Shown here: piece after piece, positions 4,425-44,371 of the stretch
Numbering within the stretch: position 1 is the first letter of the stretch
Layout of the letters: every line of letters starts with the position of its first letter
DNA from: Reinekea marinisedimentorum
GTDB taxonomy: Bacteria > Pseudomonadota > Gammaproteobacteria > Pseudomonadales > Natronospirillaceae
DNA: 64,000 nucleotides
Assembly (NCBI RefSeq): GCF_004341165.1
Contig: NZ_SLZR01000004.1
Coordinates: forward strand, 62,001 to 126,000
Direction of reading: 5' to 3'
Translations under genes and position numbers: made by a program
The notes under the pieces: generated by a model
The model's input: the letters and a program-made list of their open reading frames with translations, nothing else
What the model was told of the DNA's origin: nothing
The model's database searches: none

Positions 4425-5519
4425 TTAATTATGGGCACTATTTAAAATAGCGCTCCACCATGCATCGTTTGCCAGGTACCATTGAAGGGTTTTATTAATA
4501 CCTGTTTCAAACGATTCCATTGGCTGGTAACCCAGCTCTGCCTTAGTTTTAGTTGCATCTATGGCATAACGCCTGTCGTGCCCGGCCCTATCGGTTACAA
4601 AGGTAATGAGCTGCTCTGCATTACCTTTAGCGGCAAGCTGTGCAGCCGGGTATTTCTTTGTAAGGCTATGGTCTTCTGCAAAGGCTTTATTCATCAGCTT
4701 GCATACAAGGTGAACTATATCTATGTTCGCCCATTCGTTGTGGCCACCAATGTTATAGTTTTCGCCCACCTTCCCTTTGTTTAATACAAGGTCTATGCCG
4801 CGGGCGTGATCTTCAACATAGAGCCAATCGCGAATCTGCTGGCCATCGCCATAAACAGGCAATGGCTTATCGTGAAGAATATTGGTGATAAGCAGCGGTA
4901 TTAACTTTTCCGGGAAGTGATAAGGGCCGTAATTGTTAGAACAATTAGATGTTGTTACCTGCAAGCCATAGGTATGGTGGTATGCGCGCACCAGGTGGTC
5001 GGATGATGCCTTACTTGCAGAATACGGCGAGTTTGGCTCATAGGGGTTTGTTTCTTTAAATGGCGGGTCGCTGGGTGCAAGTGAACCATATACTTCATCG
5101 GTAGAAACATGGTGAAAACGATGATCAACCGCCGGTTGAGCATTTGTTTTAGGGGTATCTATCCATACTTTTTTTGCTGCCTTAAGCAAGCTGTAGGTGC
5201 CCAGAATGTTGGTTTCTATAAAGGCATCTGGCCCTGTTATAGAGCGGTCGACATGCGATTCTGCCGCGAAATGCACCAGCGTATTTATACCGTGCTCGCA
5301 CAGCAGCTGCTCTACCAATGCGGTATCGCATATATTGCCATGAACGAAGGTTAGTTTAGGGTTAGATATTACATCGTTCAGGCTGGCTTTATTACCTGCG
5401 TAGGTTAGGGCATCTAAAACCACTACCTTGTCATTCGGGTAGTTGGCCAGCCAATAATGAACAAAGTTTACGCCTATAAACCCTGCACCACCTGTTACTA
5501 AAAGCGTTTTGTTAGTCAT
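4425..5519 (-). CDS. rmlB: dTDP-glucose 4,6-dehydratase RmlB
   Basis: This is the second step of dTDP-L-rhamnose synthesis, converting dTDP-glucose to dTDP-4-keto-6-deoxyglucose in the cytoplasm. The 364-residue extended SDR shows TGGAGFIG (NAD binding, residues 9-16), STDEVYG (139-145), YSASK with the catalytic Tyr/Lys (166-170), and the family string NNYGPYHFPEKLIP. I chose ATG 5519, which overlaps the end of rmlD by 8 nt; the longer frame uses a GTG at 5525. All four rml genes are present in the order A-C-D-B along the transcript, so the operon can make its own dTDP-rhamnose. Confidence 0.96.
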   Translation of the reverse strand: MTNKTLLVTGGAGFIGVNFVHYWLANYPNDKVVVLDALTYAGNKASLNDVISNPKLTFVHGNICDTALVEQLLCEHGINTLVHFAAESHVDRSITGPDAFIETNILGTYSLLKAAKKVWIDTPKTNAQPAVDHRFHHVSTDEVYGSLAPSDPPFKETNPYEPNSPYSASKASSDHLVRAYHHTYGLQVTTSNCSNNYGPYHFPEKLIPLLITNILHDKPLPVYGDGQQIRDWLYVEDHARGIDLVLNKGKVGENYNIGGHNEWANIDIVHLVCKLMNKAFAEDHSLTKKYPAAQLAAKGNAEQLITFVTDRAGHDRRYAIDATKTKAELGYQPMESFETGINKTLQWYLANDAWWSAILNSAHN

Positions 5520-6405
5520 TAGCACTGTTACTTTCTGAAATTCTTTTTACATCATCCAACATAAACGATAGCTGCTTACGCCAGTGTATTGTAGCCAAAC
5601 CGCTTGCCAATTCTGCAGGGGCTTTATCGAGCACTGAATAATGCGGGCGCTTAGCGGGTGTTGGGTAGTCGCTGGCCGGTATGGGCTTTATGGGTATTGC
5701 ACTACTTAACAGGCCTTTTTCTACTGCAAGCTCTTGTATGGCAATTGCAAAATCGTACCAGGAAGCTACACCTGCATCTGTCCAGTTATATAGGCCATTT
5801 AGTTCCGGCTTAACAGCTATTGCCCATAACCATTGTGCCAGGCCTTTGGCCCAGGTTGGCGTGCCTACCTGGTCGTACACTATTCCCAGCTCCGGTTTTT
5901 CACGCATTAAGCGCAACATGGTTTTTACAAAATTGTTGCCATTGGCCGAATAGACCCAGGCAGTACGCACAATAAGGCTGCTTTCAGGCAACAGCTTTGC
6001 AACTGCTATATCACCCGCTAGCTTAGAGGCGCCATATACGCTAACCGGGTTTGGTTTACTCTCTGCTGTATAGGGTATTGTTTGTGTACCATCAAAGACA
6101 AAATCGGTTGAAACATGAAGTAAACGGGCTCCGGTTTGCCTACATGCCTCTGCTATATTGCGGGCTCCATCGCGGTTTACTGCGTAGGCGTTTTGTACAT
6201 CTGCCTCAGCTTTATCTACGGCAGTATAGGCAGCTGTATTAATAACAACTTCTGGTTGAATACGTTGAATAGTATCTGCCGTTGCATGGGCATCGGTTAT
6301 ATCCAGATCTTCAATCCCTAAAGAATAGAGCTCAACAAAGGCTGGATTGGTTTGGCTTAGCTCCCAGGCTAATTGACCACCTTTGCCGGTAACAACAACC
6401 TTCAT
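5512..6405 (-). CDS. rmlD: dTDP-4-dehydrorhamnose reductase RmlD
   Basis: This is the last step of dTDP-L-rhamnose synthesis, an NAD(P)H-dependent reduction of the 4-keto group. The 297-residue protein starts MKVVVTGKGGQLAWEL (a Rossmann GxxGQLG-type loop with a Lys-Gly variant). It has NTAAYTAVDKAE (residues 56-67) and YGASKLAGD with the catalytic Tyr/Lys near residue 128, all typical of RmlD. Its start overlaps the rmlC stop by 4 nt and its end overlaps rmlB, as expected for translational coupling. Confidence 0.95.
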   Translation of the reverse strand: MKVVVTGKGGQLAWELSQTNPAFVELYSLGIEDLDITDAHATADTIQRIQPEVVINTAAYTAVDKAEADVQNAYAVNRDGARNIAEACRQTGARLLHVSTDFVFDGTQTIPYTAESKPNPVSVYGASKLAGDIAVAKLLPESSLIVRTAWVYSANGNNFVKTMLRLMREKPELGIVYDQVGTPTWAKGLAQWLWAIAVKPELNGLYNWTDAGVASWYDFAIAIQELAVEKGLLSSAIPIKPIPASDYPTPAKRPHYSVLDKAPAELASGLATIHWRKQLSFMLDDVKRISESNSAND

Positions 6406-9794: not shown

Positions 9795-11159
9795 TTGGAA
9801 CCTATCAATATTCTTCATCATGGCGCTGTGAGTGGCGTTACCGGCAGCTGCCACCAGTATGTATCGGAATCTACCAACCTGCTCATCGATTGTGGCCTGT
9901 TTCAAGGGAGCGAAGCAGCACAGATTGATTTAGCCAACTTTCCGTTTGATGTTAGCCGCCTGAACGCCGTTGTGTTAACACACGGCCATATAGACCATAT
10001 TGGCCGCATTCCCTGGCTGATCGCTGCTGGCTTTCGTGGGCCTATTATTTGTACAAAGCCTACTGCAAAGCTGCTGCCCATCATTCTGCGCGATGCGCTG
10101 TCTTTTCATATTCCCGGAAACGACACACTCATGAATTCCGTTATGGCGCGGTTAGAGCGTCAAATTATTGGCTATGATTACAACACTTGGTTTAAGCCTG
10201 ATAATACTTCTACAGGTTGCACCCGTTTAAGGCTGCGGCCTGCCGGCCATATATTGGGCTCTGCTTACATTGAAATTGAAGAAAACGGCCACCGCACTGT
10301 GTTCAGTGGCGATTTAGGTTCGCCCGGTGCCGTATTTGTAGAACCGCCCGCCTCACCTGAACGTGCTGACACACTCATCATTGAAACCACCTATGGCGAT
10401 AGGCTTCACACCCAGCGCAAAGAGCGCGAACAGCTGCTGGCTAAACTGATTAACCGGGCGCTTTCAGATAATGGAACATTGCTTATACCGGCGTTTTCAC
10501 TGGGCCGAACGCAGGAATTACTCAGCATCATAGAAAACCTGCTGCACAACGGCAAAATTAGCTGGCACAGCACAACAGCCCTGCCTGTTATTTTAGATTC
10601 ACCCTTGGCAGGCGAGCTAACTTCCGCATACCGATCACTGGCCAACTATTGGCCAGAAGAGCTGATAACCCGCAGGAACAGCGGGCGAATGCCATTGGCT
10701 TTCGATAATCTAATCACCGTAGAAGGCCACTCAGAACATAAAAAACTGGTTAAGCGTTTGGCGCAAACCGAGCAACCGGCCATTGTTATTGCCGCCAGCG
10801 GTATGTGCCAGGGCGGGCGCATTATGAACTACCTGGAAGCACTACTGCCCCTGAAAACAACTGAAGTTTTGTTTGTGGGTTATCAAGCCAAGGGGACGCT
10901 GGGTAGCGAACTACAAAATAGCAAACCGGGTGATACGGTGCGGGTTAATGACCAGCAAATAGAAGTAAATGCGCAAACCTGGTCGATCAGTGGGTTTTCG
11001 GCCCATGCGGATCAGGCTGATTTGTTAGCATTTATTGAAGGCATTAAACCAGAACCTGCTGAAATACGGCTGGTTCATGGCGATGAACAGGCTAAACGTA
11101 CTTTTGCTGGTTTGATTAAAAAGGCGTTGCCGCGAGTGAAGGTTGTTGTGCCGGGGTGA
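9795..11159 (+). CDS. Metallo-beta-lactamase/beta-CASP RNase-like protein
   Basis: The protein has 454 residues. The MBL zinc motif HGHIDHIGR (residues 63-71) and FSGDLG give the nuclease metal site. The later SGMCQGGRIMNYL, SGFSAHADQ and LVHGDEQA are the beta-CASP motifs B/C of RNA-processing enzymes (YsgF/CPSF73-like bacterial family). It probably cleaves RNA, but the physiological target is unknown. The start is a TTG at 9795 preceded by a good AAAGGA at 9781; no nearby ATG gives a complete MBL domain. It is monocistronic and faces cysD tail-to-tail. Confidence 0.88.
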   Translation: MEPINILHHGAVSGVTGSCHQYVSESTNLLIDCGLFQGSEAAQIDLANFPFDVSRLNAVVLTHGHIDHIGRIPWLIAAGFRGPIICTKPTAKLLPIILRDALSFHIPGNDTLMNSVMARLERQIIGYDYNTWFKPDNTSTGCTRLRLRPAGHILGSAYIEIEENGHRTVFSGDLGSPGAVFVEPPASPERADTLIIETTYGDRLHTQRKEREQLLAKLINRALSDNGTLLIPAFSLGRTQELLSIIENLLHNGKISWHSTTALPVILDSPLAGELTSAYRSLANYWPEELITRRNSGRMPLAFDNLITVEGHSEHKKLVKRLAQTEQPAIVIAASGMCQGGRIMNYLEALLPLKTTEVLFVGYQAKGTLGSELQNSKPGDTVRVNDQQIEVNAQTWSISGFSAHADQADLLAFIEGIKPEPAEIRLVHGDEQAKRTFAGLIKKALPRVKVVVPG

Positions 11160-17121: not shown

Positions 17122-18291
17122 TTAATCGTTACCGAACAGATCACGGGTATAGACTTTGTCTATAACGTCTTCTAGCACCTCTGATGGGCGGTTAGCCACG
17201 ATAACATCAGAGATGCGCTTAAACTCCTCCAGGTCCTTAATTACTTTAGACCTGAAGAATTCAGATTCGGTTAGAACTGGCTCGTAGACTACTACCTCAA
17301 TACCCTTGGCTTTTATTCTCTTCATAACACCCTGAATAGCAGATGCACGAAAATTATCAGAACCAGCCTTCATTACTAAACGAAATATACCTACAACTCT
17401 TGGGTTTCGCTTGATAATAGAGTCAGCAATAAAATCTTTACGGGTAGTATTGGCGTCGACAATAGCGCGCACCATGTTATTTGGTACATTCTGAAAGTTC
17501 GCGAGCAATTGCTTGGTATCTTTTGGCAAACAATAGCCGCCGTAGCCAAAACTAGGGTTATTGTAATGATTGCCGATTCGGGGGTCTAACCCAACGCCTT
17601 CAATAATCTGTCGTGCCTGCAAGCCGTGAGATTCAGCGTAGGAATCCAACTCGTTAAAATAGGCAACACGCATGGCCAGGTAGGTATTGGAAAACAGTTT
17701 AACCGCTTCAGCTTCAGTAGAATCAACAAATAGTGTTGGAATTTCCTTTTTAATTGCCCCCTCAGTCAGCAACTGAGCAAAACGTTCAGCCCGTTCGCTT
17801 ATTTCACCCACGATAATACGGGATGGATAAAGATTATCGTACAGCGCTTTACCTTCACGTAGGAACTCCGGTGAGAACATCAGGTTCGGCACGTCTAAGC
17901 GTTCACGGGCTTCCTTGGTGTAGCCTACCGGCACTGTAGATTTAATAACCATTACTGCATTTGGGTTAATTGCTACTACCTGATTAATTACGGCCTCTAC
18001 ACTGCCGGTATTAAAGTAGTTAGTTTGTGGGTCGTAATCCGTTGGCGTAGCGATAATGACGAATTCTGCGTCTTTGTATGCGCTTTCGGCATCCAGTGTC
18101 GCCCTGAAGTTCAAGGCTTTGTTAGCTAAGAATTCTGAGATTTCAGCATCTTCAATTGGCGATTGCTGCTTGTTCAACAGGTCAACTTTCTCTTTAATGA
18201 TATCAACCGCTACCACCTCGTTGTTTTGAGCGAGCAACATCGCATTAGAAAGACCTACATAGCCGGTACCTGCAACTGCTATCTTTGTCAT
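17122..18291 (-). CDS. ugd: UDP-glucose 6-dehydrogenase Ugd
   Basis: This enzyme oxidises UDP-glucose to UDP-glucuronate, a precursor of acidic polysaccharides. The 389-residue protein matches the short E. coli type. It has [17 protein letters not shown] (NAD binding), [23 protein letters not shown], and [14 protein letters not shown] with the catalytic Cys near residue 253. The start ATG is preceded by GGAA. It leads the cys operon, linking uronic-acid supply with PAPS supply. UDP-GlcA or a GlcA-derived sugar could therefore be the sulfated residue, but this is inference. Confidence 0.94.
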
Positions 18292-22069: not shown

Positions 22070-23473
22070 TCAGCTGCGACCGTATCGGTCGGTTAGGCGA
22101 ATAATATCGTCTTCACCCAAATACGCTCCGGTTTGAACTTCAATCAGCTCCAGAGGGATTTTGCCCGGATTTTCCAGTGCGTGAACCTCACCCAGCGGAA
22201 TATAGATCGACTGATTTTCAGTCACCATTTGAACGGTATCGCCTACGGTTACATTGGCGGTGCCTTTTACGACAATCCAGTGCTCGGCACGGTGGTGGTG
22301 CTTCTGTACAGACAGCTTTTCACCCGGTTTCACCATAATATTCTTAACATGGTATCGGGTACCTTCGTTAATGGTTTCGTATGAGCCCCACGGGCGATAC
22401 ACCTTAGTATGAACCTCGTGCTCTGTGCGGCCCGCTGCCTTCAATTGATTCACCACGTGTTTGATATCCTGTGCGCGGCTGCGAGGCATTACGGCGACAG
22501 CATCTTTCGTTGAAACAATCGCCAGGTCTTCAACACCCACCGCCGCAATCAACTGGTTTTCACTGCGGATAAAGTTGCCTTTCGCTTCATGAATCAGCAC
22601 ATCCCCGAACAACACATTGCCTGATTCATCTTTTTCATTCAGGTCGTAGAGTGCGGCCCAGGCACCGATATCATTCCAGTCACCATCATATGGCACCACT
22701 ACGGCACGGGTGGTTTTTTCCATAATGGCGTAGTCGATGGAATCGGATGGAGATGCCTCGAACGCTTCAGAATCGATACGGATAAAGTCGAGATCCACCT
22801 TATGGCCGTCGAACGCCTTTTTCACGGAGGTATAGATTTCCGGCTGGAATGCATTCAGCTCATCCAGGTAGGCCTGAGCAGAAAACACAAACATACCGGA
22901 GTTCCAGTAATAGCTGCCCGCGGCTACATATTGCTCTGCGGTTTCAGCATCCGGCTTTTCTTTAAAAGCTTTAACGGGGCTAACAACGCCCTTCTCTTCT
23001 GCCTGAATATAGCCATAACCCGTCTCAGCATAGGTTGGCTTCACACCAAAGGTGACCAACTTACCATTTTTGGCTTGCTCGACGGCTAAATCTAAGGCTG
23101 CAGCGAATTTATCGTGATCGCGAATGACATGATCTGCCGGCAACACGACCAAAATAGCATTGGCATCGCGCTCCAGCGCCTGAAATGCCGCCAGAGCGAT
23201 GGCTGGCGCTGTGTTACGGCCCGCAGGCTCCAGTACAATATCAGCTTTAATGCCAGACTCAGTCATCTGCTGAGCAATCAAAAAACGGTGTTCATCGTTA
23301 CAAACAACAATAGGATTGGACGACATACCTGTCGATACCGAACGCTCGGCGGTTTGCTGAATCAGGCTTTTTTCAGCATCAAACAGATTAATACATTGCT
23401 TTGGGTACAGTTCACGCGATAACGGCCACAAACGACTACCCACACCACCGGCTAACAAAACTGGAATGATCAC
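22070..23473 (-). CDS. Mannose-1-phosphate guanylyltransferase / mannose-6-phosphate isomerase
   Basis: This bifunctional enzyme supplies GDP-mannose for polysaccharides (AlgA/CpsB/ManC type). The 467-residue protein starts from GTG 23473 with AAAGGGA upstream; the longest frame uses a TTG at 23509. The N-terminal nucleotidyltransferase has LLAGGVGSRLWPLSRELYPKQ and FVEKP-like FKEKPDAETA. The C-terminal cupin isomerase has RPWGSYETINEG and KPGEKLSVQKHHHRAEHW. It stands alone between apbC and metG, close to the sulfotransferase/glycosyltransferase group, so GDP-mannose may feed the same glycan. Confidence 0.93.
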   Translation of the reverse strand: MIIPVLLAGGVGSRLWPLSRELYPKQCINLFDAEKSLIQQTAERSVSTGMSSNPIVVCNDEHRFLIAQQMTESGIKADIVLEPAGRNTAPAIALAAFQALERDANAILVVLPADHVIRDHDKFAAALDLAVEQAKNGKLVTFGVKPTYAETGYGYIQAEEKGVVSPVKAFKEKPDAETAEQYVAAGSYYWNSGMFVFSAQAYLDELNAFQPEIYTSVKKAFDGHKVDLDFIRIDSEAFEASPSDSIDYAIMEKTTRAVVVPYDGDWNDIGAWAALYDLNEKDESGNVLFGDVLIHEAKGNFIRSENQLIAAVGVEDLAIVSTKDAVAVMPRSRAQDIKHVVNQLKAAGRTEHEVHTKVYRPWGSYETINEGTRYHVKNIMVKPGEKLSVQKHHHRAEHWIVVKGTANVTVGDTVQMVTENQSIYIPLGEVHALENPGKIPLELIEVQTGAYLGEDDIIRLTDRYGRS

Positions 23474-23653
23474 AGTTAATTCCCTTTCAGTAAGTAAAAT
23501 TCTGGGCAATTGTTACCGCTATTTGCGCTGAACGCAACTCGTCAGCAGGGATGACGGCATAAGATGCTTAAGTTAGAATGGCCTGCTTGTTTTCGGGCTG
23601 CCAGGCTCGTTTAACTTTTGTACACCACCCATTCACAAGGAATAATTTCTCGC

Positions 23654-34779: not shown

Positions 34780-35310
34780 ATGAACTACTGCAGTGTATGT
34801 GGCCACAAGGTCACCATTAAAATACCAGAAGATGATCACCGCCCTCGCCACGTTTGCGAGAACTGTAACACCATCCATTATCAGAACCCGAGGCCCATCA
34901 CCTGTACACTGCCCATCGCACCCGATGGCCGTATTGTATTGTGCCGTCGAAATATCGAGCCACAGAAAGACCTCTGGACACTGCCCGGCGGCTTCATGGA
35001 GAACGGTGAAACAACCCTTCAGGGTGCGCTGCGGGAAACCTGGGAAGAAGCAGAAATTCATGCCGAAACCGGCGAGCTGTTAGCCGTGATCAGCCTGCCT
35101 GCCTGGGATCAGGTGCATATCTTCTATACCGTGAAAATGGCCGATTACAGCTATTCAACCACGCCTGAAACCAATGAGATCGAACTGTTTGATGAACAGC
35201 AAATTCCGTGGGATGAACTGGCCTTCAAAACCGTTGAAAGCGCCCTTAAACACTATTTTCACACCTGCAAAACCGAGCATTTCGTGTTGAGCTCGAGCGT
35301 CGCCCCCTAA
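34780..35310 (+). CDS. Nudix hydrolase with N-terminal zinc ribbon
   Basis: The 176-residue protein has a CxxC...CxxC ribbon (YCSVCGHK, HVCENCNT) in residues 1-30. A Nudix box follows: GGFMENGETTLQGALRETWEEAE. This architecture matches small ADP-ribose/NADH-pyrophosphatase-like Nudix proteins next to cell-housekeeping genes in many gammaproteobacteria. The substrate is not assignable. The start ATG lacks a strong ribosome site. Confidence 0.8.
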   Translation: MNYCSVCGHKVTIKIPEDDHRPRHVCENCNTIHYQNPRPITCTLPIAPDGRIVLCRRNIEPQKDLWTLPGGFMENGETTLQGALRETWEEAEIHAETGELLAVISLPAWDQVHIFYTVKMADYSYSTTPETNEIELFDEQQIPWDELAFKTVESALKHYFHTCKTEHFVLSSSVAP

Positions 35311-35439
35311 TTCGCCGGGCGGCGATGCCTGCCACCTACCCTTTCTACCAGTGCACGATATTTTCAAACCTCAGACAACCATTTCATTTTGACCTGCTAA
35401 CCTGTATTTTAAGTGCAACGCATACAGGACCTTCTAAAA

Positions 35440-36816
35440 ATGGACAGCGTTTTTACGAGCGATACCGAGCAAGCCGCCTGCCCGATGGCCAGCGTTGATC
35501 ACGCCTGGCTAAGAATGGATACACCGGTCAACCCAATGGTCATTAACGCGGTGATCAGTTTTAAACAACCGCTCAACACTGAAGACTGCATCCAACAAAT
35601 CACCAGCCAGCTACTTTCTAATAAAATCTTTCGCTCCAAGCCGGGTTCTTCGATATACGGAGCGCAATGGCAACAAACGAAGGTCGACGAAAGTTACCAT
35701 TTTTCGATTTGTCATCAACGCCTGAAGGATGACCAGGCACTGCAGGCACAGGCGACCGATTTCATCAATCAACCTCTGGATCACAACCGCCCATTATGGC
35801 GCGTATTGCTCGTCCCCCACTGTAAATCGGGTGGCGCGCTTGTGGTTCGTATCCATCATGCCTATGCCGACGGCATGGCACTGATGAAGGTATTGCTGAA
35901 GCTGATGGATGAGCGTGAATTAATTGAATACTATGAAAAACAACAGACAAGCAAACAAAAGAAGCCTCGTAAAAACAGAACCGTAGCGCTGTTTTCCAAA
36001 CTGCAAAACTACATGCCCGGCAATGGCAAATGGCTGGAAGCTCTCGGCCTTGTCGATGAACTCACGACCGAGCTGCTGAAACTGGGGCTCAGCCCGGGCG
36101 AAGAAAACGCCTTCAAAAAACCGGGCTTGTGCGGCAAAAAACAACTGGTGTGGACCAAGCCGTTAAACCTCGACGAAGTTAAAACCATTGCAAAATTTCA
36201 GCATGCCAAAGTCAATGATGTTCTGCTCAATTCAGTTTCCGGCGCATTCCGACGCTATCTGAAATCGATTGATCAACTCTCCGCCTGGTCCGAGATGAAG
36301 GCGGTAATCCCAGTGGATTTGCGTCAGCATGTAAATGCCAGGGAACTGGGGAATTACTTCGGCCTTGTATTCTTATCGCTGCCTTTGGGAACCGAAGACC
36401 CGATTGAACGCTCCAGGCTGTTGCATAAGCGGATGAACGCCCTGAAAGACAGTAAACAGGCCTGGCTAACCTTCCAGCTACTGCAGCTTGCAGGCTATCT
36501 GCCTGAAATCATTGAAAAGGAACTGATTCAGCTTTTCAGTAGTAAAGGCTCCATGGTAATGACCAATGTTCCGGGGCCGCAATTCCCGCTGCACCTTTCA
36601 GGCAACGAGATTGATCAGATCATGTTTTGGGTGCCGCAATCTGGCAGTATCGGCATTGGCGTAAGCATTCTTACCTACAACAACCATGTTCAGTTTGGTT
36701 TGATGACAGATAAACAAATCATCCCCAACCCGGAAAAGCTGATCGACTTTTTCACCGAAGAATTTGAATCTCTGTTGCTGGAAACGCTAATGACAGTGCA
36801 ATGGCCGAGCGCCTAG
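35440..36816 (+). CDS. Wax ester synthase / acyl-CoA:diacylglycerol acyltransferase (WS/DGAT)
   Basis: The enzyme joins acyl-CoA to a fatty alcohol or diacylglycerol, making wax esters or triacylglycerol at the inner membrane. The 458-residue protein carries the catalytic HHxxxDG motif, HHAYADG at residues 139-145, preceded by PLDHNRPLWRVLLV. NDVLLNSVSGAFRRYL and TNVPGPQFPL also fit the family. I use ATG 35440 (AGGA upstream) rather than the GTG at 35413. A fatty acyl-CoA reductase of the matching pathway lies 1 kb downstream on the other strand. The stop codon lies inside the left end of a CTAGTG repeat element. Confidence 0.9.
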   Translation: MDSVFTSDTEQAACPMASVDHAWLRMDTPVNPMVINAVISFKQPLNTEDCIQQITSQLLSNKIFRSKPGSSIYGAQWQQTKVDESYHFSICHQRLKDDQALQAQATDFINQPLDHNRPLWRVLLVPHCKSGGALVVRIHHAYADGMALMKVLLKLMDERELIEYYEKQQTSKQKKPRKNRTVALFSKLQNYMPGNGKWLEALGLVDELTTELLKLGLSPGEENAFKKPGLCGKKQLVWTKPLNLDEVKTIAKFQHAKVNDVLLNSVSGAFRRYLKSIDQLSAWSEMKAVIPVDLRQHVNARELGNYFGLVFLSLPLGTEDPIERSRLLHKRMNALKDSKQAWLTFQLLQLAGYLPEIIEKELIQLFSSKGSMVMTNVPGPQFPLHLSGNEIDQIMFWVPQSGSIGIGVSILTYNNHVQFGLMTDKQIIPNPEKLIDFFTEEFESLLLETLMTVQWPSA

Positions 36817-36860
36817 TGGGCTGTGCGTAAAGTTCGGTAACTGTTCGCACGGCCCACTAG
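36813..36860. repeat. CTAGTG-bounded palindromic element, copy 1 (48 bp)
   Basis: The arms CTAGTGGGCTGTGCG (36813-36827) and its near-perfect complement CGCACGGCCCACTAG (36846-36860) enclose TAAAGTTCGGTAACTGTT. CTAG sits at each end. The left CTAG contains the TAG stop of the wax ester synthase. Related copies lie at 41919 and 44368. Confidence 0.75.
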
Positions 36861-36868
36861 CTTCATAG

Positions 36869-37762
36869 CTACAGATCACCGGCTTTTATTTGATTGCACA
36901 ACAGCTCATGCGCGGTAGTGTTCAGGGTTGCACTCATGTGCCCACGCGCATTGATTGCCAGGCCTGGGCGGTCTATCAATGATAACGACGGCGGTATGAC
37001 GATGGTATCGTGCGTAGAGTGCAGATAGAAAGTTACGGTTTTGCTGCCATCGTCTCGTGCGTTCAGGTCTTTTAACCATTGGCTGCCGGGTGACATTTGT
37101 GCTGCATTTTCAGAATGCGTCATAAGGTGATAAAGCCTGGCAAGCTGTGTACCCTGATAAGGCGTATTCACTGAATAATGCCGAATCGCCTCTTCGCCGC
37201 TATCCGCCAGATAGGCTCTCGCCGCAAGGCCGCCCATACTGAAAGAGACCAAAACCAATTCCACCTCTTTATTAAGCGCCCTTACTCGCGCCACTTCGTC
37301 AGCAATCTGTGCTGCATAATCGTCGATCGAACCAAAAGGATGTTCAAACTCAACGTAACTGAAGGAAATGCCGTTTGCGGCCAACTGCTTTTCAAAGAAG
37401 TGCCAGAAGCCGTTATTGCACATAAAGCCATGCAGCAGAATGACATGCTGCCCTGCAACCTTATGACGATCTGAATTCCCCGGGTGCGCCTTCAGCTGAT
37501 ACCAGGCATACAGCAGTGTAAAACTATAGAACTCGGTCCAGCAGTAAACGACTAATGCCCGCAGCGTCATCCGGTAGTCTTTTTGCGTAAAGGCAACATA
37601 AAGGCAAACGCTGGTAATAACCACAAAGCGAATGGCCAGCATACCCCCCAATGCCAAAAACACCCCCGAGACAAAACCCGCCACGGTTAAAAGACTGACA
37701 AGATACAGCAGGGAAAACTCTGCCAGATGCCAGATTCTGATCAGGGAGCGAACGGTCATCAT
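36869..37762 (-). CDS. Membrane-anchored alpha/beta hydrolase (lipase-like)
   Basis: The 297-residue protein has two or three hydrophobic segments in residues 15-75, then an alpha/beta hydrolase domain. That domain starts at VILLHGFMCNNGFWHFF with the oxyanion-type HGF. The nucleophile is Ser in VSFSMGGLAAR near residue 173, STHDTIVIPP holds the likely acid, and ARGHMS the His. The gene lies 3 nt from the fatty acyl-CoA reductase on the same strand, so the two are co-transcribed. A role in hydrolysing or remodelling stored lipid esters is plausible but not shown. Triacylglycerol lipase or esterase are the alternatives. Confidence 0.72.
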   Translation of the reverse strand: MMTVRSLIRIWHLAEFSLLYLVSLLTVAGFVSGVFLALGGMLAIRFVVITSVCLYVAFTQKDYRMTLRALVVYCWTEFYSFTLLYAWYQLKAHPGNSDRHKVAGQHVILLHGFMCNNGFWHFFEKQLAANGISFSYVEFEHPFGSIDDYAAQIADEVARVRALNKEVELVLVSFSMGGLAARAYLADSGEEAIRHYSVNTPYQGTQLARLYHLMTHSENAAQMSPGSQWLKDLNARDDGSKTVTFYLHSTHDTIVIPPSLSLIDRPGLAINARGHMSATLNTTAHELLCNQIKAGDL

Positions 37763-37765
37763 TGC

Positions 37766-39781
37766 TTACCAGTGAACACCTTTCATTAGCGATGCAAACA
37801 TGAGCTGAGCCGGTGAAGGTTGCGGCGCTTTGGCTTTTTCGCCGGAACCATCCTGCTTTTTACCTTTATCTGCCTCTTTAAACAGGCGGAAAGCGGTATT
37901 CATAATCTGCCGCTGAGTTTTAGGTGACAGCGCATGCACAACCTCTGCAAACTTACCAAGCCGGGTCGAAACCCGCTCACTGCGCTTCAGCACCGCCTCG
38001 ACCACCAGTTCTGCGGCCTCTTCCGGCGTCAGGGCGGGCACATTGTTATACAGCGCGGTGGGTGCAATCATCGGCGTACGCACCAGCGGCATATTTATAT
38101 TGGTGAAGTGGACCTTATGATCGGCCAGTTCTGCAGCGGCACAACGGGAAAACGCCTCAAGCGCAGCTTTCGAGCCAACATAGGCAGAAAACCTAGGTGC
38201 ATTACTGAGCACACCGATCGAAGAGATATTTATGACGTGTCCGCCACCCCGCTCTTCCATAAGCGGAATGCTTTTCAACACCATAGAGACCGCGGCAAGA
38301 TAATTCAGCTGAATAGTCCGTTCGAAATCATGCAGACGCTCCAAAGACTCGGTAACCGGTCTTCTGATCGAGTGACCGGCATTATTAATCAAGTAATCAA
38401 CGCCTCCCAATTGCGCCTTGATGGAAGAGAACAGGTTATCGACATCCTGTTGCTGGGTAATATCGGCCACGTAGCTGTATACCCGGCCACCGGCTTTTTC
38501 AATTTCTGCATGAGCGGCCTGCAGTTTTTCCGGATCCCGCGCGCAGATAATCACCACGGCACCGACCTGTGAAAGCCGCTTTGCCGTGGCTTTACCAATT
38601 CCGGATGAACCACCAGTGATAAGAACAACCTTGTGGTTCAGTCGGTCTTCCAGCGTTTTTTCGGTAAACAGTGCTGCATCCAGATTACGTTCCCAATAAT
38701 CCCATAAGGCGGGCGCGTAGGTTTCCAGATCCGGAACGAAGATGCCGGCCTTTTCCAGCAGTTGCTCAGCCTTGCGGTTATCGTACTGGGTTGGCCAGTT
38801 GATGAACCGGAACAGGTCTTTGGGAATGCCCATACTTTCAAGCAGGTCATCCACAATCTCCTTAACCCCTGGAATCGCGGTTAAGTTCTTCCGCAGCATA
38901 ATGGGGACCAGCTCGACCAGGCGGGCGTTGATCCTTACATCAAACTCCGGGGAATGAGCAGAACGCGCAAACAGATTTAACAGCTGACCAAAGCGCCAGT
39001 GCTTTTTATCGGTCAGGTGGAAGGCTTGGCCGTCCTGATCCGGCTCAAAGGCCAGCTGGCTTATTGCATTCACAACGAAATCGACGGGTACCAGGTTAAA
39101 ATAGCCGCCCTCAAGCCCCAGCAAAGGAAACCAGGGAGGAAGCGCCTGACGAATACTTTTCAGCATATTGAACAGGTAGTACGGGCCATCGACCTTATCC
39201 ATCTCGCCGGTTTTAGAATCACCCACAACAAAGCTTGGGCGGTAAATCCGATAGGCAAAATCTGTTTGATCACGAACAATACGCTCGGATTCATGCTTGG
39301 TTGAAAAATATGGATGGTCCAAACCGGTTGCTTCGGTAAACATATCTTCGCGGAACACACCCGGGTAAAAACCTGCCGCTGCAATCGAGCTCATCAAATG
39401 AAAGGTTTTCACCCCAATCTCACGTGCAAATTCAACCGCGTATTGGCTTCCCTGTACGTTCACTGCGTACTGCGAATCTCGGTCCGCTTTTAAATCGTAT
39501 ATCGCTCCAAGGTGAAAAAAGTGATCAACACTACCGGCCATTTGTGCTTTTGCTTCTTCACTGACACCCAGTGCCGGTTCACTTAAATCACCCTGGATAA
39601 ACTTAACCTTGTCGCGCAGGTGTTCATTGGTTACCGTTTTTTGCAGAACCTTATCGGCTTTTTGCAGCGAAGCTGGCCGAACCAGGATATAGAGGGTGTG
39701 AATTTCAGGGCGAGACTCTAATAAACGTGCAACAAGGCGGCGGCCGATAAAGCCGGTACCGCCAGTAATAAACACCTGCAT
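37766..39781 (-). CDS. Two-domain fatty acyl-CoA reductase, alcohol-forming (Marinobacter FAR type)
   Basis: The 671-residue enzyme reduces acyl-CoA or fatty aldehyde to fatty alcohol with NADPH, feeding wax ester synthesis. The N-terminal extended-SDR domain has ITGGTGFIGRRL (residues 5-16), SSIAAAGFYPGVFREDMF and YFSTK (158-162). The C-terminal classical SDR domain has ITGGSSGIGKAT (388-399), NNAGHSIRR, NISSIGVLSNAPRFSAY and the YVGSK site (534-538). The two-domain layout, total length and many shared strings match the characterised Marinobacter enzyme Maqu_2220 as I recall it. AAGGA lies 7 nt before the ATG. A palindrome shared with the tetR/phasin region lies 65 bp upstream. Confidence 0.9.
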   Translation of the reverse strand: MQVFITGGTGFIGRRLVARLLESRPEIHTLYILVRPASLQKADKVLQKTVTNEHLRDKVKFIQGDLSEPALGVSEEAKAQMAGSVDHFFHLGAIYDLKADRDSQYAVNVQGSQYAVEFAREIGVKTFHLMSSIAAAGFYPGVFREDMFTEATGLDHPYFSTKHESERIVRDQTDFAYRIYRPSFVVGDSKTGEMDKVDGPYYLFNMLKSIRQALPPWFPLLGLEGGYFNLVPVDFVVNAISQLAFEPDQDGQAFHLTDKKHWRFGQLLNLFARSAHSPEFDVRINARLVELVPIMLRKNLTAIPGVKEIVDDLLESMGIPKDLFRFINWPTQYDNRKAEQLLEKAGIFVPDLETYAPALWDYWERNLDAALFTEKTLEDRLNHKVVLITGGSSGIGKATAKRLSQVGAVVIICARDPEKLQAAHAEIEKAGGRVYSYVADITQQQDVDNLFSSIKAQLGGVDYLINNAGHSIRRPVTESLERLHDFERTIQLNYLAAVSMVLKSIPLMEERGGGHVINISSIGVLSNAPRFSAYVGSKAALEAFSRCAAAELADHKVHFTNINMPLVRTPMIAPTALYNNVPALTPEEAAELVVEAVLKRSERVSTRLGKFAEVVHALSPKTQRQIMNTAFRLFKEADKGKKQDGSGEKAKAPQPSPAQLMFASLMKGVHW

Positions 39782-39845
39782 ATAACTATCCTTATTTAAT
39801 CAGTTTTATTTATATTGATTAAAAGCTAGTACCAGACAAAATAAG

Positions 39846-39858
39846 AGTCAATTTGACA
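39846..39858. promoter_or_regulatory. Putative operator, FAR promoter region
   Basis: The minus-strand reading TGTCAAATTGACT is an 11-bp palindrome (GTCAA-A-TTGAC) and contains a TTGACT -35-like hexamer facing the reductase gene. It differs by one base from the 13-bp core at 43954-43966. It lies 65 bp from the reductase start and 44 bp from the divergent FFLEELY gene. Confidence 0.5.
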
Positions 39859-39901
39859 ATGACAATATGGCATCAATTACATTGCTTTGAGCACAATCTA
39901 C

Positions 39902-40600
39902 ATGAGAAAAACGAGTAAACAGTTCGAAAAGGCGATCCACAATCACCTTTCCGATATTCAGAACATCAGGATCACGCCAACGTTCAGGCAACTGCAACGC
40001 TGGCAGTCTGAGCGCCTGTTTGACACCCATCGTGAGCTCTATCAGCAACCTAAATTTCAGCCGGCGATGCGCTTTTTTTCTGAGGAGCTGTACGGTACCG
40101 AGCACTTCATGCAACGCAATAATGAGTTGATAAAAGCACTGCCACTCATGTGCCGGACGATGCCCGCGCAAATTTTACGGATTGTCGAAAACGCCGCTCT
40201 GTTGCAGCGGGTCAGCCTGCAGCTGGATGCGCAACTGCTCACCCACCTGCCCGCCGGTATTTCAATAGAACATTTAACGCTGCAGCAATGGGTACAGGCT
40301 TATGCCCAATGCGACAACAGGCCGCAAAGGCAGCAGCAGCTGGATTTAATTGAAAGTATCGGTAATGACCTGGCCGCCATCATTCACATCCCCATGATTA
40401 CCGCATTGCTAAATTGGGCTGAAAAACCGGCAAAACTGGCGGGTTACGGGGAGATACACCACTTCGTCATTACCGGTTTCAGGGCATTTAAACGGCTGAA
40501 AAACCCACAGGATTTTCTGCAGCCGGTTATCAGCAAAGAACGGCAACTCTCCGGCCAGTGGTTTGCTCAGGCTTCATCCAGCTCTTTGCGCGCCAGGTAA
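39902..40600 (+). CDS. FFLEELY-motif-like hypothetical protein
   Basis: The 232-residue soluble, largely helical protein contains RFFSEELYGTEHF near residue 60, a variant of the conserved FFLEELYG motif after which a family of uncharacterised proteobacterial proteins is named. No catalytic motif is visible. I use ATG 39902; a TTG at 39887 would add five residues. It is divergent from the fatty acyl-CoA reductase and shares its putative operator region. Its last 34 bases overlap the 3' end of the convergent TPR gene. A link to storage-lipid metabolism is suggested by position only. Confidence 0.65.
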   Translation: MRKTSKQFEKAIHNHLSDIQNIRITPTFRQLQRWQSERLFDTHRELYQQPKFQPAMRFFSEELYGTEHFMQRNNELIKALPLMCRTMPAQILRIVENAALLQRVSLQLDAQLLTHLPAGISIEHLTLQQWVQAYAQCDNRPQRQQQLDLIESIGNDLAAIIHIPMITALLNWAEKPAKLAGYGEIHHFVITGFRAFKRLKNPQDFLQPVISKERQLSGQWFAQASSSSLRAR

Positions 40601-41346
40601 TAATCCATCGCTTCGAGTGCATCTATCGGCGTGTTTTCGGTGGCCCGCTGATACAGGTTGACCGCATCCTTTAAGCGTTTTTTGCCAAACATTTTTAGCA
40701 GGCCGTCAGCAAATTCAGTTATGGCGCTCACCGAATAAGGTGCCAGCTCGATGGCTTTCTGGTAATGCCCGAGCGCGTCATCGGCAGAGGACGAATAGGT
40801 CAATTTTGCGGCCATTTTTCCAAGCTTACCGATGATCTCTGCCTGATAGGTACCCAGCGAGGTATGGGCATCGGCATGATCGGGCTCCAGCTGCAGGCAC
40901 TCTTTAATCGCATGCTGAACCTTACCGGCTAACCCTTCTGCCAATGCCTTGGTAATTGAAATAAATTGTCCGTATCGCCCTAATGCATAGGCCAGCTGGT
41001 AATACAGGTTAGCCCTGCTCTCCTGCTCCTCGCGCAGCGCTGTTTCTGCCTGTTGTGCACAGGCTTTCAGGCTTTCTGTCTTCTTTTCCGCATCCGCTTC
41101 CAGGTAATAGGCATAGGTTGCGCTGGCTTTCAGGTAAAGGCTGGCGCCACCAGGCAGAACTTTGGCTTTTTCTGCACTCTGCAGATATTCACCATTGTGA
41201 AACAGCAGCCAGGCCGCCAGCAGATCTTCATCTTTTGGCCGCGCTTCACAGTCTCCGGCGTGCAGACGGCCCCATTGCTCTTTCATGGATTCCATCGTCA
41301 GTGGGGTGAATAGAGGCTTGATATCTTCAAAATTGATCTGAGTCAT
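40567..41346 (-). CDS. TPR-repeat protein, uncharacterised
   Basis: The 259-residue protein has no signal peptide. Several helical pairs fit tetratricopeptide repeats: ANLYYQLAYALGRYGQFISI, ADAHTSLGTYQAEI, ALGHYQKAIELAPYSVSAITEFADGL and RLKDAVNLYQRATENTP. TPRs mediate protein contacts, so it may be a scaffold. The C-terminal 11 codons overlap the convergent FFLEELY gene. It is divergent from phasin gene 1, with an 8-bp inverted repeat (TCCTGATT 41346-41353 / AATCAGGA 41390-41397) between the two. Confidence 0.7.
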   Translation of the reverse strand: MTQINFEDIKPLFTPLTMESMKEQWGRLHAGDCEARPKDEDLLAAWLLFHNGEYLQSAEKAKVLPGGASLYLKASATYAYYLEADAEKKTESLKACAQQAETALREEQESRANLYYQLAYALGRYGQFISITKALAEGLAGKVQHAIKECLQLEPDHADAHTSLGTYQAEIIGKLGKMAAKLTYSSSADDALGHYQKAIELAPYSVSAITEFADGLLKMFGKKRLKDAVNLYQRATENTPIDALEAMDYYLARKELDEA

Positions 41347-41449
41347 CCTGATTTCCCTAATAAAGCCGGATTAGTGTGTTTACTCTAATAATCAGGAATA
41401 GATTAAAGATGTAGCCCGGTCAAGCGGCTCTCATACAGGAGACAACATC

Positions 41450-41905
41450 ATGTCAAAACTATCTAAAAACAAACTTACCGTTGCAACACAGACAACGAAA
41501 GATACCGCTCGTCAGATGTGGATGGCAGGTTTAGGTGCCTTTGTAAAAACCGGTCAGGAAGGCGGTCGACTGTTCTCCAGCCTGGTGGAAGAAGGCGAAC
41601 AGTTTCAGGAAAAAGTATCCAACAAAGCCACTGATCAGGTGAATGGCACTGTCGATTCGGTAATGACTCAGGCCTCTGGCCAATGGGATAAGCTGGAAGC
41701 AATTCTGGAAGATCGCGTCATTAAAGTACTGGATAAACTCGGTGTACCAACAAAAGACGATGTATCTGAACTGATCGAGAAAATCGACAAGCTTCAGGCT
41801 GCGGTCGATGGTACTGCAAAGAAAGCACCGGCCACCCGTGCTAAAAAACCAGCAGCGCCTAAAGCAGTAGCCGAAGAAAAAGCAGCGGAAGCAAAAGCTG
41901 AATAA
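41450..41905 (+). CDS. Phasin-like granule-associated protein 1
   Basis: The 151-residue protein contains RQMWMAGLGAFVKTGQEGGRLFSSLVEEGEQFQEK (residues 21-55), the core of the PhaI/PhaF type phasin family, followed by amphipathic helices and KLGVPTKDDVSELIEKIDKLQ. The C-terminal 25 residues are a Lys/Ala/Pro-rich tail (KKAPATRAKKPAAPKA) like a shortened PhaF histone-like tail. Phasins coat polyester granules. No PHA synthase is in the window, and the neighbours make wax esters, so the granule could be either. AGGAGA lies 8 nt upstream of the ATG. Confidence 0.82.
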   Translation: MSKLSKNKLTVATQTTKDTARQMWMAGLGAFVKTGQEGGRLFSSLVEEGEQFQEKVSNKATDQVNGTVDSVMTQASGQWDKLEAILEDRVIKVLDKLGVPTKDDVSELIEKIDKLQAAVDGTAKKAPATRAKKPAAPKAVAEEKAAEAKAE

Positions 41906-41918
41906 AAACTGCCACCAC

Positions 41919-42082
41919 CTAGTGGCGCATGTGCAAAATAAGGTCACTGTTGGCTTCGCAGTTCGATGGGTCTCAGCGTTGGTAAAGCTTGAAAGAGCAC
42001 CACTATTCCAACGCTTTACCGCCTTAAACTCCATTGAACTGCAGCGCTCCTTAGAGACCGAATTTCCCGCATGAGGCACTAG
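41919..42082. repeat. CTAGTG-bounded structured element, copy 2 (164 bp)
   Basis: CTAGTGGCGCATG at the left pairs imperfectly with CATGAGGCACTAG at the right. Internally, several nested inverted repeats occur: GCAGTTCGATGG with CCATTGAACTGC, GGTCTC with GAGACC, AGCGTTGG with CCAACGCT, and GGTAAAGC with GCTTTACC. The copy ends 5 nt before the GGAGG ribosome site of the patatin gene and probably forms a complex structure in the leader RNA. Confidence 0.65.
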
Positions 42083-42097
42083 TGAAGGAGGTGTGTG

Positions 42098-43291
42098 ATG
42101 GTTAATCATAAAAAAACGATCGCCCTAGCGTTAGCCGGTGGTGGTCCGCTCGGAGGGCTCTATGAACTTGGAGCCCTTATGGCAATTCAACAGGCCTTAC
42201 CAACATTAAAACTGCATCAGTTACCGATGTATGTTGGCGTCAGTGCGGGTTCTGTCATTGCATCAGCACTGGCCAACAACTTTGCCATCAATGACATTGC
42301 AAAAAATTTGTTGCGGCCACAGGTTGCTGACCACCCTATTCATCCCTCCCTGTTTTATAAACCGGCATGGAAGGAGTATATGGCGCGCCTTTCTCGTTTA
42401 CCGGCGCTAAGCCTGGAAGCCGTCAGCGACTATTTTGTTCAGCCGGATGATGAAACCCTACTGGAAAGCTTTACCCGACTGAAAAGGCTGCTGCCTTCCG
42501 GTTTTTTCAACAATCAGCCCATTGAGCAATACTTACGAAACCTGTTTGAGCAACAGGGTGTGAGCAATGATTTCCGGCAACTGAATTCCCGGTTAATGGT
42601 AGTTGCGGCCGATCTGGATAAGGGCAACTCGGTTGTTTTTGGCCAGCATGGCTGGGATGACGTCCCGATTTCAGTCGCGGTACAGGCCTCAACCGCCGTG
42701 CCTGGGCTTTATCTACCGGTTAAAATTCACGACCGTTATTTTGTTGATGGCGTCCTCTACAAAACCGTACACGCCTCAGCCGCCATAGATGCCGGTGCCG
42801 ATTTGGTTATCTGCATTAACCCGGTAGTGCCCTATGAGAACAACAACTTCGACGACACTCGGGCAGAGCAAACGTCGATTAAAAACGAAGGCAGTATCGG
42901 CATTATCAGCCAGGCATTACGAGCACTGGTTCATTCGAGATCTACCACCGGTTTCCGGCAGTACGATTCAGATTACCCGGATAAGGACATTCTGCTGTTT
43001 GAACCCAGCCCTACCGATGCCGAATGGTTCTTCACCAACGAGTTCAGCTTTAAAAACCGCAGCAGTCTGGTGGAAAAAGCCTACAAGGCGACGCTTCAGG
43101 ATTTAGCGGGTCGCAGAGAAGCCCTGAATGAAGTACTAGCGGGTTATCGATTAGAAATAACCGAAGAGAGCCTGGTTCCGAACAACCGGGAGATTCTCGA
43201 ATGCAGAAAACGACGCAGGAAGCTGAGCCCACATATGCTTCAACTGCGAAAATCTCTCAACAAGCTGGAGCAACAGCTCGAAGAGCCTTAA
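42098..43291 (+). CDS. Patatin-like phospholipase
   Basis: The 397-residue protein has the patatin Ser-Asp dyad layout: LALAGGGPLGGLYELGAL (oxyanion hole, residues 10-27), YVGVSAGSVIAS with the GxSxG nucleophile near residue 51, and RYFVDGVLYKT with the DG Asp near 214. No signal peptide is seen. It probably hydrolyses acyl esters of phospholipid or neutral lipid. ATG 42098 has GGAGG 6 nt upstream; the longer frame uses a GTG 3 nt earlier. It lies between phasin 1 and the convergent TetR gene. A PHA/lipid-granule-linked role is inference; related patatin genes occur next to phasins. Confidence 0.88.
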   Translation: MVNHKKTIALALAGGGPLGGLYELGALMAIQQALPTLKLHQLPMYVGVSAGSVIASALANNFAINDIAKNLLRPQVADHPIHPSLFYKPAWKEYMARLSRLPALSLEAVSDYFVQPDDETLLESFTRLKRLLPSGFFNNQPIEQYLRNLFEQQGVSNDFRQLNSRLMVVAADLDKGNSVVFGQHGWDDVPISVAVQASTAVPGLYLPVKIHDRYFVDGVLYKTVHASAAIDAGADLVICINPVVPYENNNFDDTRAEQTSIKNEGSIGIISQALRALVHSRSTTGFRQYDSDYPDKDILLFEPSPTDAEWFFTNEFSFKNRSSLVEKAYKATLQDLAGRREALNEVLAGYRLEITEESLVPNNREILECRKRRRKLSPHMLQLRKSLNKLEQQLEEP

Positions 43292-43300
43292 GCCCTTCTG

Positions 43301-43912
43301 TTATGCCAGCTTCATCAGTTGTTCAACCTGCAGCTGATCACTGGCGCGCAGGTATGGCAGTATTAACCCCAATATTTGCGTCAGGGCGGCCTGTTCTGCG
43401 TTTGATTTCAACCTTCCGGCTGGCAACAGCCGGCTGAAATCCTGCCAGAAAAAGGCTATGAAGGTTACCTGCCGAGCCAGGCGCTCGGTATCACCCCGTG
43501 TCGCCACCATCACCCCCTGCATTTTCAGGCGGCTGAACACCCCTTTCTGATGCTCTTCCACACTGGCAGTGACCTGCTGCATCAGAAACCGGACGTGCTC
43601 AATGTGCTCAACCAGATAATTCTGATTCAAAAAAATAAAGCGATAGCTTTCTGCCAATGCAAACCACCGCAGCCACCAGCTGACCCAATCGTCCAACGTT
43701 ATTTGCTCAGGCATCGTTAACAGCGGGTCGAGCCGTTGCTGAAACCTTTTTAACAGCTGAACAATCATTTCATCTTTATTTTTATAGTGGTAGTAAAGGT
43801 TGCCAACGCTTATATCAGCACCATCAGCAATGCCATTGGTCGTAACCTTGGCAGGACCAAGTTCATTCAGCTGGTTCAGCGCTTCAACCAGAATGCGTTC
43901 AGAAGTTTTCAC
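43301..43912 (-). CDS. TetR-family regulator, PhaD-like
   Basis: The 203-residue protein has an N-terminal TetR helix-turn-helix: KTSERILVEALNQLNELG, then VTTNGIADGADISVGNLYYHYKNKDEMIVQLLKRFQQRL. The ISxGNLYYH-x3-KxExI pattern and the following DPLL resemble PhaD, the TetR regulator of Pseudomonas pha genes, as I recall it. The C-terminal ligand domain is predicted helical. It is divergent from phasin 2. An ATGTCAAATTGACAT palindrome lies 41 bp from its start, so autoregulation plus control of the phasin and the acyl reductase is likely but untested. Confidence 0.85.
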   Translation of the reverse strand: MKTSERILVEALNQLNELGPAKVTTNGIADGADISVGNLYYHYKNKDEMIVQLLKRFQQRLDPLLTMPEQITLDDWVSWWLRWFALAESYRFIFLNQNYLVEHIEHVRFLMQQVTASVEEHQKGVFSRLKMQGVMVATRGDTERLARQVTFIAFFWQDFSRLLPAGRLKSNAEQAALTQILGLILPYLRASDQLQVEQLMKLA

Positions 43913-43952
43913 TTACGGCCTGCGAGTCGGTGGGTTGTATTTCTATTAAAGC

Positions 43953-43967
43953 ATGTCAAATTGACAT
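43953..43967. promoter_or_regulatory. Putative TetR operator between tetR and phasin 2
   Basis: ATGTCAA-A-TTGACAT is a perfect 15-bp odd-centre palindrome. The right half contains a TTGACA -35 for the rightward phasin gene, and the reverse strand also reads TTGACA toward tetR. Nearly the same sequence lies at 39846-39858 before the fatty acyl-CoA reductase. Confidence 0.6.
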
Positions 43968-44035
43968 TATTAAAATGCAACCTAACTTTATTAGAGGCTT
44001 GGTTAACAATCACATCAGTAAAAACAGGATTAAGT

Positions 44036-44371
44036 ATGAAAAAAGACTCCTTTGCACAGCAGATTTGGTATGCAGGACTGGGTGTTATCGCTCGCGCCGA
44101 ATCGGAAAACACTGAGTGGCTGCAAGACTTCATCAAAGAGGGAGAAAAGTACGAAGAGGCCCGTATAGACGAGCTAAAAGCCAAATTGAGCCAGTTTGAA
44201 GATAAAACCGTTGGCAGCACCAAACGCAAATTTGACGATATTGAAAAAAGCTTTGAATCTAAAGTATCGCAATCACTTTCCAAGGTGGGCTTAATGTCCA
44301 AGTCTGAATTTGAGACGCTGAAAGAAAAGCTCGAGCAACTGGAACAGCAAATTAACGACCTGAAAAGCTAG
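44036..44371 (+). CDS. Phasin-like protein 2
   Basis: The 111-residue protein has QQIWYAGLGVIARAESENTEWLQDFIKEGEKYEE (residues 6-39). It aligns with the phasin 1 core (QMWMAGLGAFVKTG...EEGEQF) and then becomes a helical heptad region ending LEQLEQQINDLKS. The longer frame upstream runs through the promoter and is not used; ATG 44036 has AGGA 8 nt upstream. It lacks the Lys/Pro-rich tail of phasin 1. Its TAG stop falls inside the left CTAG of repeat copy 3. Confidence 0.8.
   Translation: MKKDSFAQQIWYAGLGVIARAESENTEWLQDFIKEGEKYEEARIDELKAKLSQFEDKTVGSTKRKFDDIEKSFESKVSQSLSKVGLMSKSEFETLKEKLEQLEQQINDLKS

Follow-up and report, generated by a model that had tools for sequence, protein, structure and literature searches.

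Why should genes for wax ester synthesis share a locus with genes for phasins, the granule-coat proteins normally linked to storage of the bioplastic polyhydroxyalkanoate (PHA)? This question is raised by a 64,000-nucleotide stretch of Reinekea marinisedimentorum DNA (contig NZ_SLZR01000004.1, positions 62,001 to 126,000), referred to here as the window, in which nine genes form a block at 35440-44371. In order, they encode a wax ester synthase/diacylglycerol acyltransferase (WS/DGAT, or WS), a membrane-anchored alpha/beta hydrolase, a fatty acyl-CoA reductase (FAR), a protein with an FFLEELY motif, a tetratricopeptide repeat (TPR) protein, phasin 1, a patatin-like lipase, a TetR-family regulator, and phasin 2. 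An initial annotation took in the first three and missed the six other genes of the same block. We consider it probable that the locus is a module for storing neutral lipid, most likely wax ester, with a coat and a regulator of the PHA-granule type.

Phasins and wax ester synthase

Both candidate coat proteins belong to PF05597. Phasin 1 (41450-41905, plus strand; E 1.1e-32) is 81-85% identical to its counterparts in two sister species (G150 and G154), and phasin 2 (44036-44371, plus strand) is given here in its short ATG form, the match to PF05597 (E 1.2e-20) being found in the longer open reading frame 43787-44371. They score 113.2 and 74.3 bits, above the Pfam cut-off of 28.8, and lie under the TIGR01837 cut-off of 94.7 with 87.5 and 64.5 bits.

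When the phasins are placed in genomic context, they follow WS and not PHA synthase. Within the family, WS, FAR, and PF05597 phasins are confined to the same 4 of 22 genomes, with WS and FAR jointly absent from the other 18, and the PHA synthase domain PhaC_N (PF07167) was detected in none of the 22, the source genome included, while a Caulobacter control genome was positive. Across 145 genomes of the order, 48 have both phasin and WS, 9 have WS only, 12 phasin only, and 76 neither (Fisher p 6e-18). The association persists when genera are counted (31, 5, 9, and 46 of 91; p 3e-11) and when families are counted (20, 3, 6, and 18 of 47, a total inferred from labels; p 3e-5). No association is seen between PhaC and phasins by genus (12, 15, 28, and 36; p 1). 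Among genomes without a full PhaC, a phasin is present in 40 of 48 with WS versus 5 of 59 without it, counting as PhaC-lacking six genomes that have only weak or partial PhaC_N matches (G016, G033, G066, G098, G121, and G126; that of G098 exceeds the Pfam cut-off by a short match). Handling these six otherwise gives 36 of 44 versus 4 of 57. The position of the phasin gene also differs, being within 10 kb of PhaC in all 14 cases from genomes with PhaC and no WS and in none of the 8 from genomes with both, a count made on phasin matches down to about E 6e-7 only (73 genes). In a phasin tree of 75 rows and few columns, 49 of 52 rows from FAR loci, together with three others, fall on one side of a 97/98 branch, and phasin 1 is among these FAR-locus phasins.

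The block at its own site and elsewhere

The block is present or absent as a whole. In G150 and G154 all nine genes are colinear with those of the window genome and have the same flanks. In G151 and G138 all nine are missing from the same site, where a Nudix gene (34780-35310 in the window) is followed by a homologue of the gene at 44543, with about 280 bp (G151) and 124 bp (G138) between the flank matches. Saccharospirillum salsuginis (G157) has the nth locus without the block and carries FAR-hydrolase-phasin-TetR, patatin-phasin-TPR, and WS within about 32 kb elsewhere, beside a Tn3 transposase, a set equal to the block minus FFLEELY. Because whole-block presence and absence occur together with this relocated set, the block is read from sequence as a portable gene set, a pattern that horizontal transfer or repeated loss could produce. 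Near the S. salsuginis WS, a 1336-residue protein (L046, 1305-5315) has a VasX_N match below the cut-off (25.2 bits, cut-off 27).

Much of the same set surrounds FAR genes further afield. We compared the 80 closest named FAR loci, from Lysobacter, Silanimonas, Arenimonas, Wenzhouxiangella, Limnobacter, betaproteobacterial metagenome-assembled genomes, Marinobacter, and others; as these are the best 80 of 577, the sample is biased toward FARs like that of the window, near records may be absent from it, and one member (L060) is the same record as G157. Hidden Markov models (HMMs) built here place a phasin in 45 of the 80, TPR in 34, patatin in 32, FFLEELY in 28, WS in 21, and the hydrolase in 16, with TetR in 53 and an acyl-CoA-binding protein (ACBP) in 54. 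The ACBP was confirmed as PF00887 for one member, and none lies near FAR in the window, G150, or G154. PhaC was found in none of the 80 by an HMM resting on nine sequences (L158 gave no PhaC open reading frame), and the phasin HMM found none in eight nth control loci. The ten named FAR loci from Marinobacter for which 10-kb flanks are complete contain none of these companion genes, WS included, in agreement with the statement in the initial annotation that the wax ester genes of Marinobacter are not usually adjacent.

Of the less familiar members, the TPR gene (40567-41346, minus strand; PF13431) and the FFLEELY gene (39887-40600, plus strand; NF047641, E 1.1e-61) lie between FAR and phasin 1. 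The FFLEELY protein gives a confident all-helical AlphaFold2 model (pLDDT 92), for which a fold search of the PDB returned no match at E <= 0.001, and it may possess an unusual helical fold. A patatin-phasin-TPR-FFLEELY run also occurs in another family of the order (G006; L171, 4588-9576), with no FAR or WS within the 12 kb examined and a near-palindrome upstream of its phasin.

A palindrome upstream of phasins and reductases

The TetR-family gene (43301-43912, minus strand; PF13972, E 1.5e-19) offers a candidate regulator. The HMM built for it separates 61 strong matches (E <= 3.8e-38) from 5 weak ones and strongly matches TetR genes adjoining PhaC-linked phasins, which we take, from gene order, to be PhaD. 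The regulator is described here as PhaD-like. Binding of PhaD to the promoters of phaI and phaC1 has been reported (PMC9049629).

A candidate operator is found at phasin 1. The palindrome TTAGTGTGTTTACTCTAA (41371-41388, assigned to neither strand) lies upstream of that gene, with no difference among three species and a single mismatch in S. salsuginis; within the 64-kb window it is the one site found when up to four mismatches are allowed. Its consensus YTAGWGTRnnnnYTCTAR, scanned with one mismatch or none allowed over its 14 informative positions, is widely conserved within 350 bp upstream of phasins (46 of 79, including 40 of 54 in FAR loci), a count that is partly circular because regions upstream of phasin 1 were where the palindrome was initially identified. 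The same interval upstream of FAR genes holds it in 17 of 50 cases. L060 is omitted from these counts as a duplicate of G157, and the FAR count covers 50 of the 80 loci, leaving aside L104 and loci shorter than 21 kb. Two hundred column-shuffled motifs gave means of 0.18 (phasins) and 0.07 (FARs), with maxima of 4 and 1.

For 8 of the 17 palindrome-bearing FAR genes, the upstream region is shared with a divergent phasin gene. Marinobacter FAR genes have no phasin nearby, and 8 of 10 have the palindrome at about -172 to -182; these sites were not used in finding it, and the consensus was loosened (W, R) after they had been seen. A second, poorer copy follows 33-34 bp on, or about three helical turns, in five Marinobacter species (L095, L099, L113, L126, and L128), the double palindrome lying about 140-180 bp upstream of FAR. 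PhaC-linked phasin loci carry the palindrome in two of three cases (L177 and L178, not L179). The pattern fits a TetR-type operator that would join FAR and phasins in one regulon even when the genes are unlinked.

Synthesis, turnover, and competing explanations

The identities initially given to WS/DGAT and FAR are borne out by family profiles and intact motifs. For WS/DGAT (35440-36816, plus strand), the alignment of homologues favors the ATG at 35440 over a possible earlier GTG start at 35413. The protein matches PF06974 (E 2.8e-39; 134.9 bits, cut-off 20.7) and PF03007 (E 6.7e-15; 56 bits, cut-off 23.6), its HHxxxDG (H148-G154) and NVPGP motifs are intact and invariant across eight aligned homologues, and its PDB matches are 7nxg and 6chj. 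FAR (37766-39781, minus strand) is of the Maqu_2220 type and matches NF005539/PRK07201 over residues 1-671 (858.3 bits, cut-off 549), a full-length two-domain match with NAD_binding_4 (PF07993) at the N terminus and adh_short (PF00106) at the C terminus. YxxxK active sites are present in both halves (Y158/K162 and Y534/K538) and invariant in six sequences; among PDB structures, the N-terminal half resembles thioester reductase domains and the C-terminal half classical short-chain dehydrogenases/reductases (SDRs). A single WS/DGAT gene and a single full FAR gene are present in the source genome, and the predicted functions support a complete route from acyl-CoA through alcohol to wax ester in this one locus.

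The adjacency of the two genes, which had been presented as unusual, proves to be common. Across the order, FAR relatives occur in 37 of 145 genomes, some of them partial, and WS/DGAT in 57, and in at least 11 of the 145 no more than 4 kb separates the two; seven of these have WS immediately upstream of a FAR of the same orientation, with 91-173 bp between the matches. These adjacency counts are lower bounds, made among the WS matches listed. An SDR/FAR reductase adjoining ws/dgat is also already in print (PMC10351704), and adjacency was rejected as a novelty.

The proposal that synthesis and turnover are encoded together by the three genes, with the anchored hydrolase cleaving wax esters, keeps its first half; its second half is weakened, and as a whole it appears unlikely. 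The hydrolase (36869-37762, minus strand) lies as described between WS and FAR, with a hydrophobic N terminus, a weak PF12697 match (27.5 bits, cut-off 26.3), and a Ser175-Asp252-His275 triad invariant in 17 of 17 aligned homologues. It starts 3 bp beyond the FAR stop on the same strand, and the predicted cotranscription of the two is therefore very likely; WS converges on it across 52 bp and thus lies outside the FAR-hydrolase operon. In all four family genomes with FAR, the hydrolase comes after it in the same orientation, and homologues lie near FAR in 16 of the 80 named loci. However, it is not confined to genomes with wax ester synthesis: G152 and G153, both lacking WS, FAR, and phasins, keep an intact homologue alone at the block site (L139, 14702-15589, and L140, 14723-15610; 30-32% identity, E 4e-41 and 1e-41), which weakens a role as a dedicated wax-ester turnover enzyme. 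Its sequence also diverges fast (32-33% identity within the genus, versus 67% for FAR), and most FAR loci lack it, patatin being commoner. A function as a dedicated wax-ester lipase is doubtful, and the hydrolase is the least secure part of the proposed module. No relatives of it were found in viral contigs. The patatin-like protein (42095-43291, plus strand; PF01734, E 1.7e-25), with the Ser-Asp dyad motifs GVSAG and DGV visible, is the better-linked lipase candidate.

The storage module that we propose builds on the gene identities, the block-wise presence and absence, the association of phasins with WS where PHA synthase is lacking, and the conserved palindrome; each biochemical step, the substrate coated by the phasins, the protein binding the palindrome and its signal, and any part played by the TPR and FFLEELY proteins are put forward as predictions. 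FAR would reduce acyl-CoA to fatty alcohol, which WS/DGAT would join to a second acyl-CoA to form wax ester. The wax would gather as bodies in the cytoplasm, with a coat of phasin 1 and probably of phasin 2 as well, an assignment made because no PHA synthase was found. That a heterologous phasin binds triacylglycerol inclusions has been reported (PMC6273058). The PhaD-like TetR protein might sense acyl-CoA supply and act through the palindrome upstream of phasin 1, and patatin, perhaps with the anchored hydrolase, could mobilize the store.

Several observations weigh against a wax-ester module of this kind. Nine of the 57 WS genomes have no phasin, five PhaC-lacking genomes have a phasin and no WS, and the link in PhaC-lacking genomes is weaker when only strong phasin matches (E <= 1e-15) are counted (16 of 48 versus 3 of 59, p 2e-4). 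Apart from the counts by genus and family, the association p-values are not tree-corrected. Phasin 2 groups with PhaC-linked phasins (96/86), and in the window the palindrome is absent from the vicinity of FAR, of WS, and of phasin 2. Of the 45 named FAR loci with a phasin, 26 lack WS within the flanks examined, and the full-length match of WS/DGAT to TIGR02946 falls under its cut-off (285.8 versus 309.95 bits), marking the protein, on sequence, as a divergent family member.

The last two points could be accommodated by a store made mainly of triacylglycerol, or of a mixture, in which WS/DGAT acts as a diacylglycerol acyltransferase and FAR serves some other use of alcohol. The WS/DGAT family is bifunctional, which also counts in favor of such a store. 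We nevertheless hold it to be an improbable account, as FAR and WS are each single-copy in the source genome and, across the 22 family genomes, occur together in 4 and are jointly absent in 18. Less probable still is that the phasins are stress chaperones standing beside wax genes through shared inheritance. Chaperone-like and stress-reducing effects of phasins have been described (PMC5658603), but the association with WS recurs across genera and families, the whole block is lost at one site, and the palindrome is common to phasins and unlinked FAR genes. A PHA locus served by an undetected synthase is rejected as very improbable, for although medium-chain-length (mcl) PHA loci carry these same phasin and PhaD-like TetR families, PhaC is missing from the family genomes and FAR loci searched and shows no association with phasins in the order.

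GC content in the window is 0.41-0.46 over most of 1-22000 and 0.49-0.55 beyond. Positions 1-24000 hold nucleotide-sugar genes, namely a GDP-mannose 4,6-dehydratase-like gene (4425-5525), an RmlD-like gene (5512-6405), a UDP-glucose/GDP-mannose dehydrogenase gene (17122-18291), and a ManC-like gene (22070-23509), and are probably a surface polysaccharide locus. Within this stretch a beta-CASP metallo-hydrolase gene (9795-11159; PF10996, PF07521) stands alone on the plus strand at a GC peak of 0.506.

Four known systems come closest to the proposed storage module. The Marinobacter wax-ester pathway has the same FAR architecture, its named FARs being about 50% identical to that of the window, and Maqu_2220 is reported to reduce acyl-CoA to alcohol (PMC4096523; the names Maqu_2507 and Maqu_2220 are used differently between papers). 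It differs in that its FAR stands alone, yet with the same palindrome upstream in most cases. Galvan et al. 2023 (PMC10351704) present scaffolds from beta- and gammaproteobacteria in which an SDR reductase and ACBP neighbor ws/dgat, one scaffold also having a phasin. That phasin is assigned there to PHA metabolism, and the portions of that paper considered here describe no block, patatin, TetR, or operator. Within the open-licence literature, as far as the texts covered extend, it alone joins a phasin with wax ester or FAR in a bacterial gene neighborhood, and earlier work in other journals may exist. The Pseudomonas mcl-PHA locus phaC1ZC2D-phaIF shares PF05597 phasins, an adjoining TetR gene matched by the same HMM, and, in L178, the palindrome upstream of the phasin; in place of its PHA synthase, the window locus has FAR and WS. 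Rhodococcus MLDS is an actinobacterial protein of a family other than the phasins. It is comparable in coating bacterial neutral-lipid bodies (PMC5504291).

More generally, we regard it as an evenly balanced proposition that PF05597 phasins, a PhaD-like regulator, and the palindrome form a general storage-granule kit, which in Beta- and Gammaproteobacteria would serve wax-ester or neutral-lipid bodies no less often than PHA granules, in the form of a conserved FAR-phasin-patatin-TPR-FFLEELY(-WS) cluster and of a regulon including the solitary Marinobacter FAR. On this reading, phasins would be the coat proteins so far missing for the wax bodies of proteobacteria. For such wax-ester bodies the analysis offers candidates for the coat, the regulator, the operator, and the lipases. 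Annotations as "PHA granule protein" may mislead in genomes without PHA synthase, and the proposed regulon, which would tie FAR to phasins across genes lying far apart, is directly testable.

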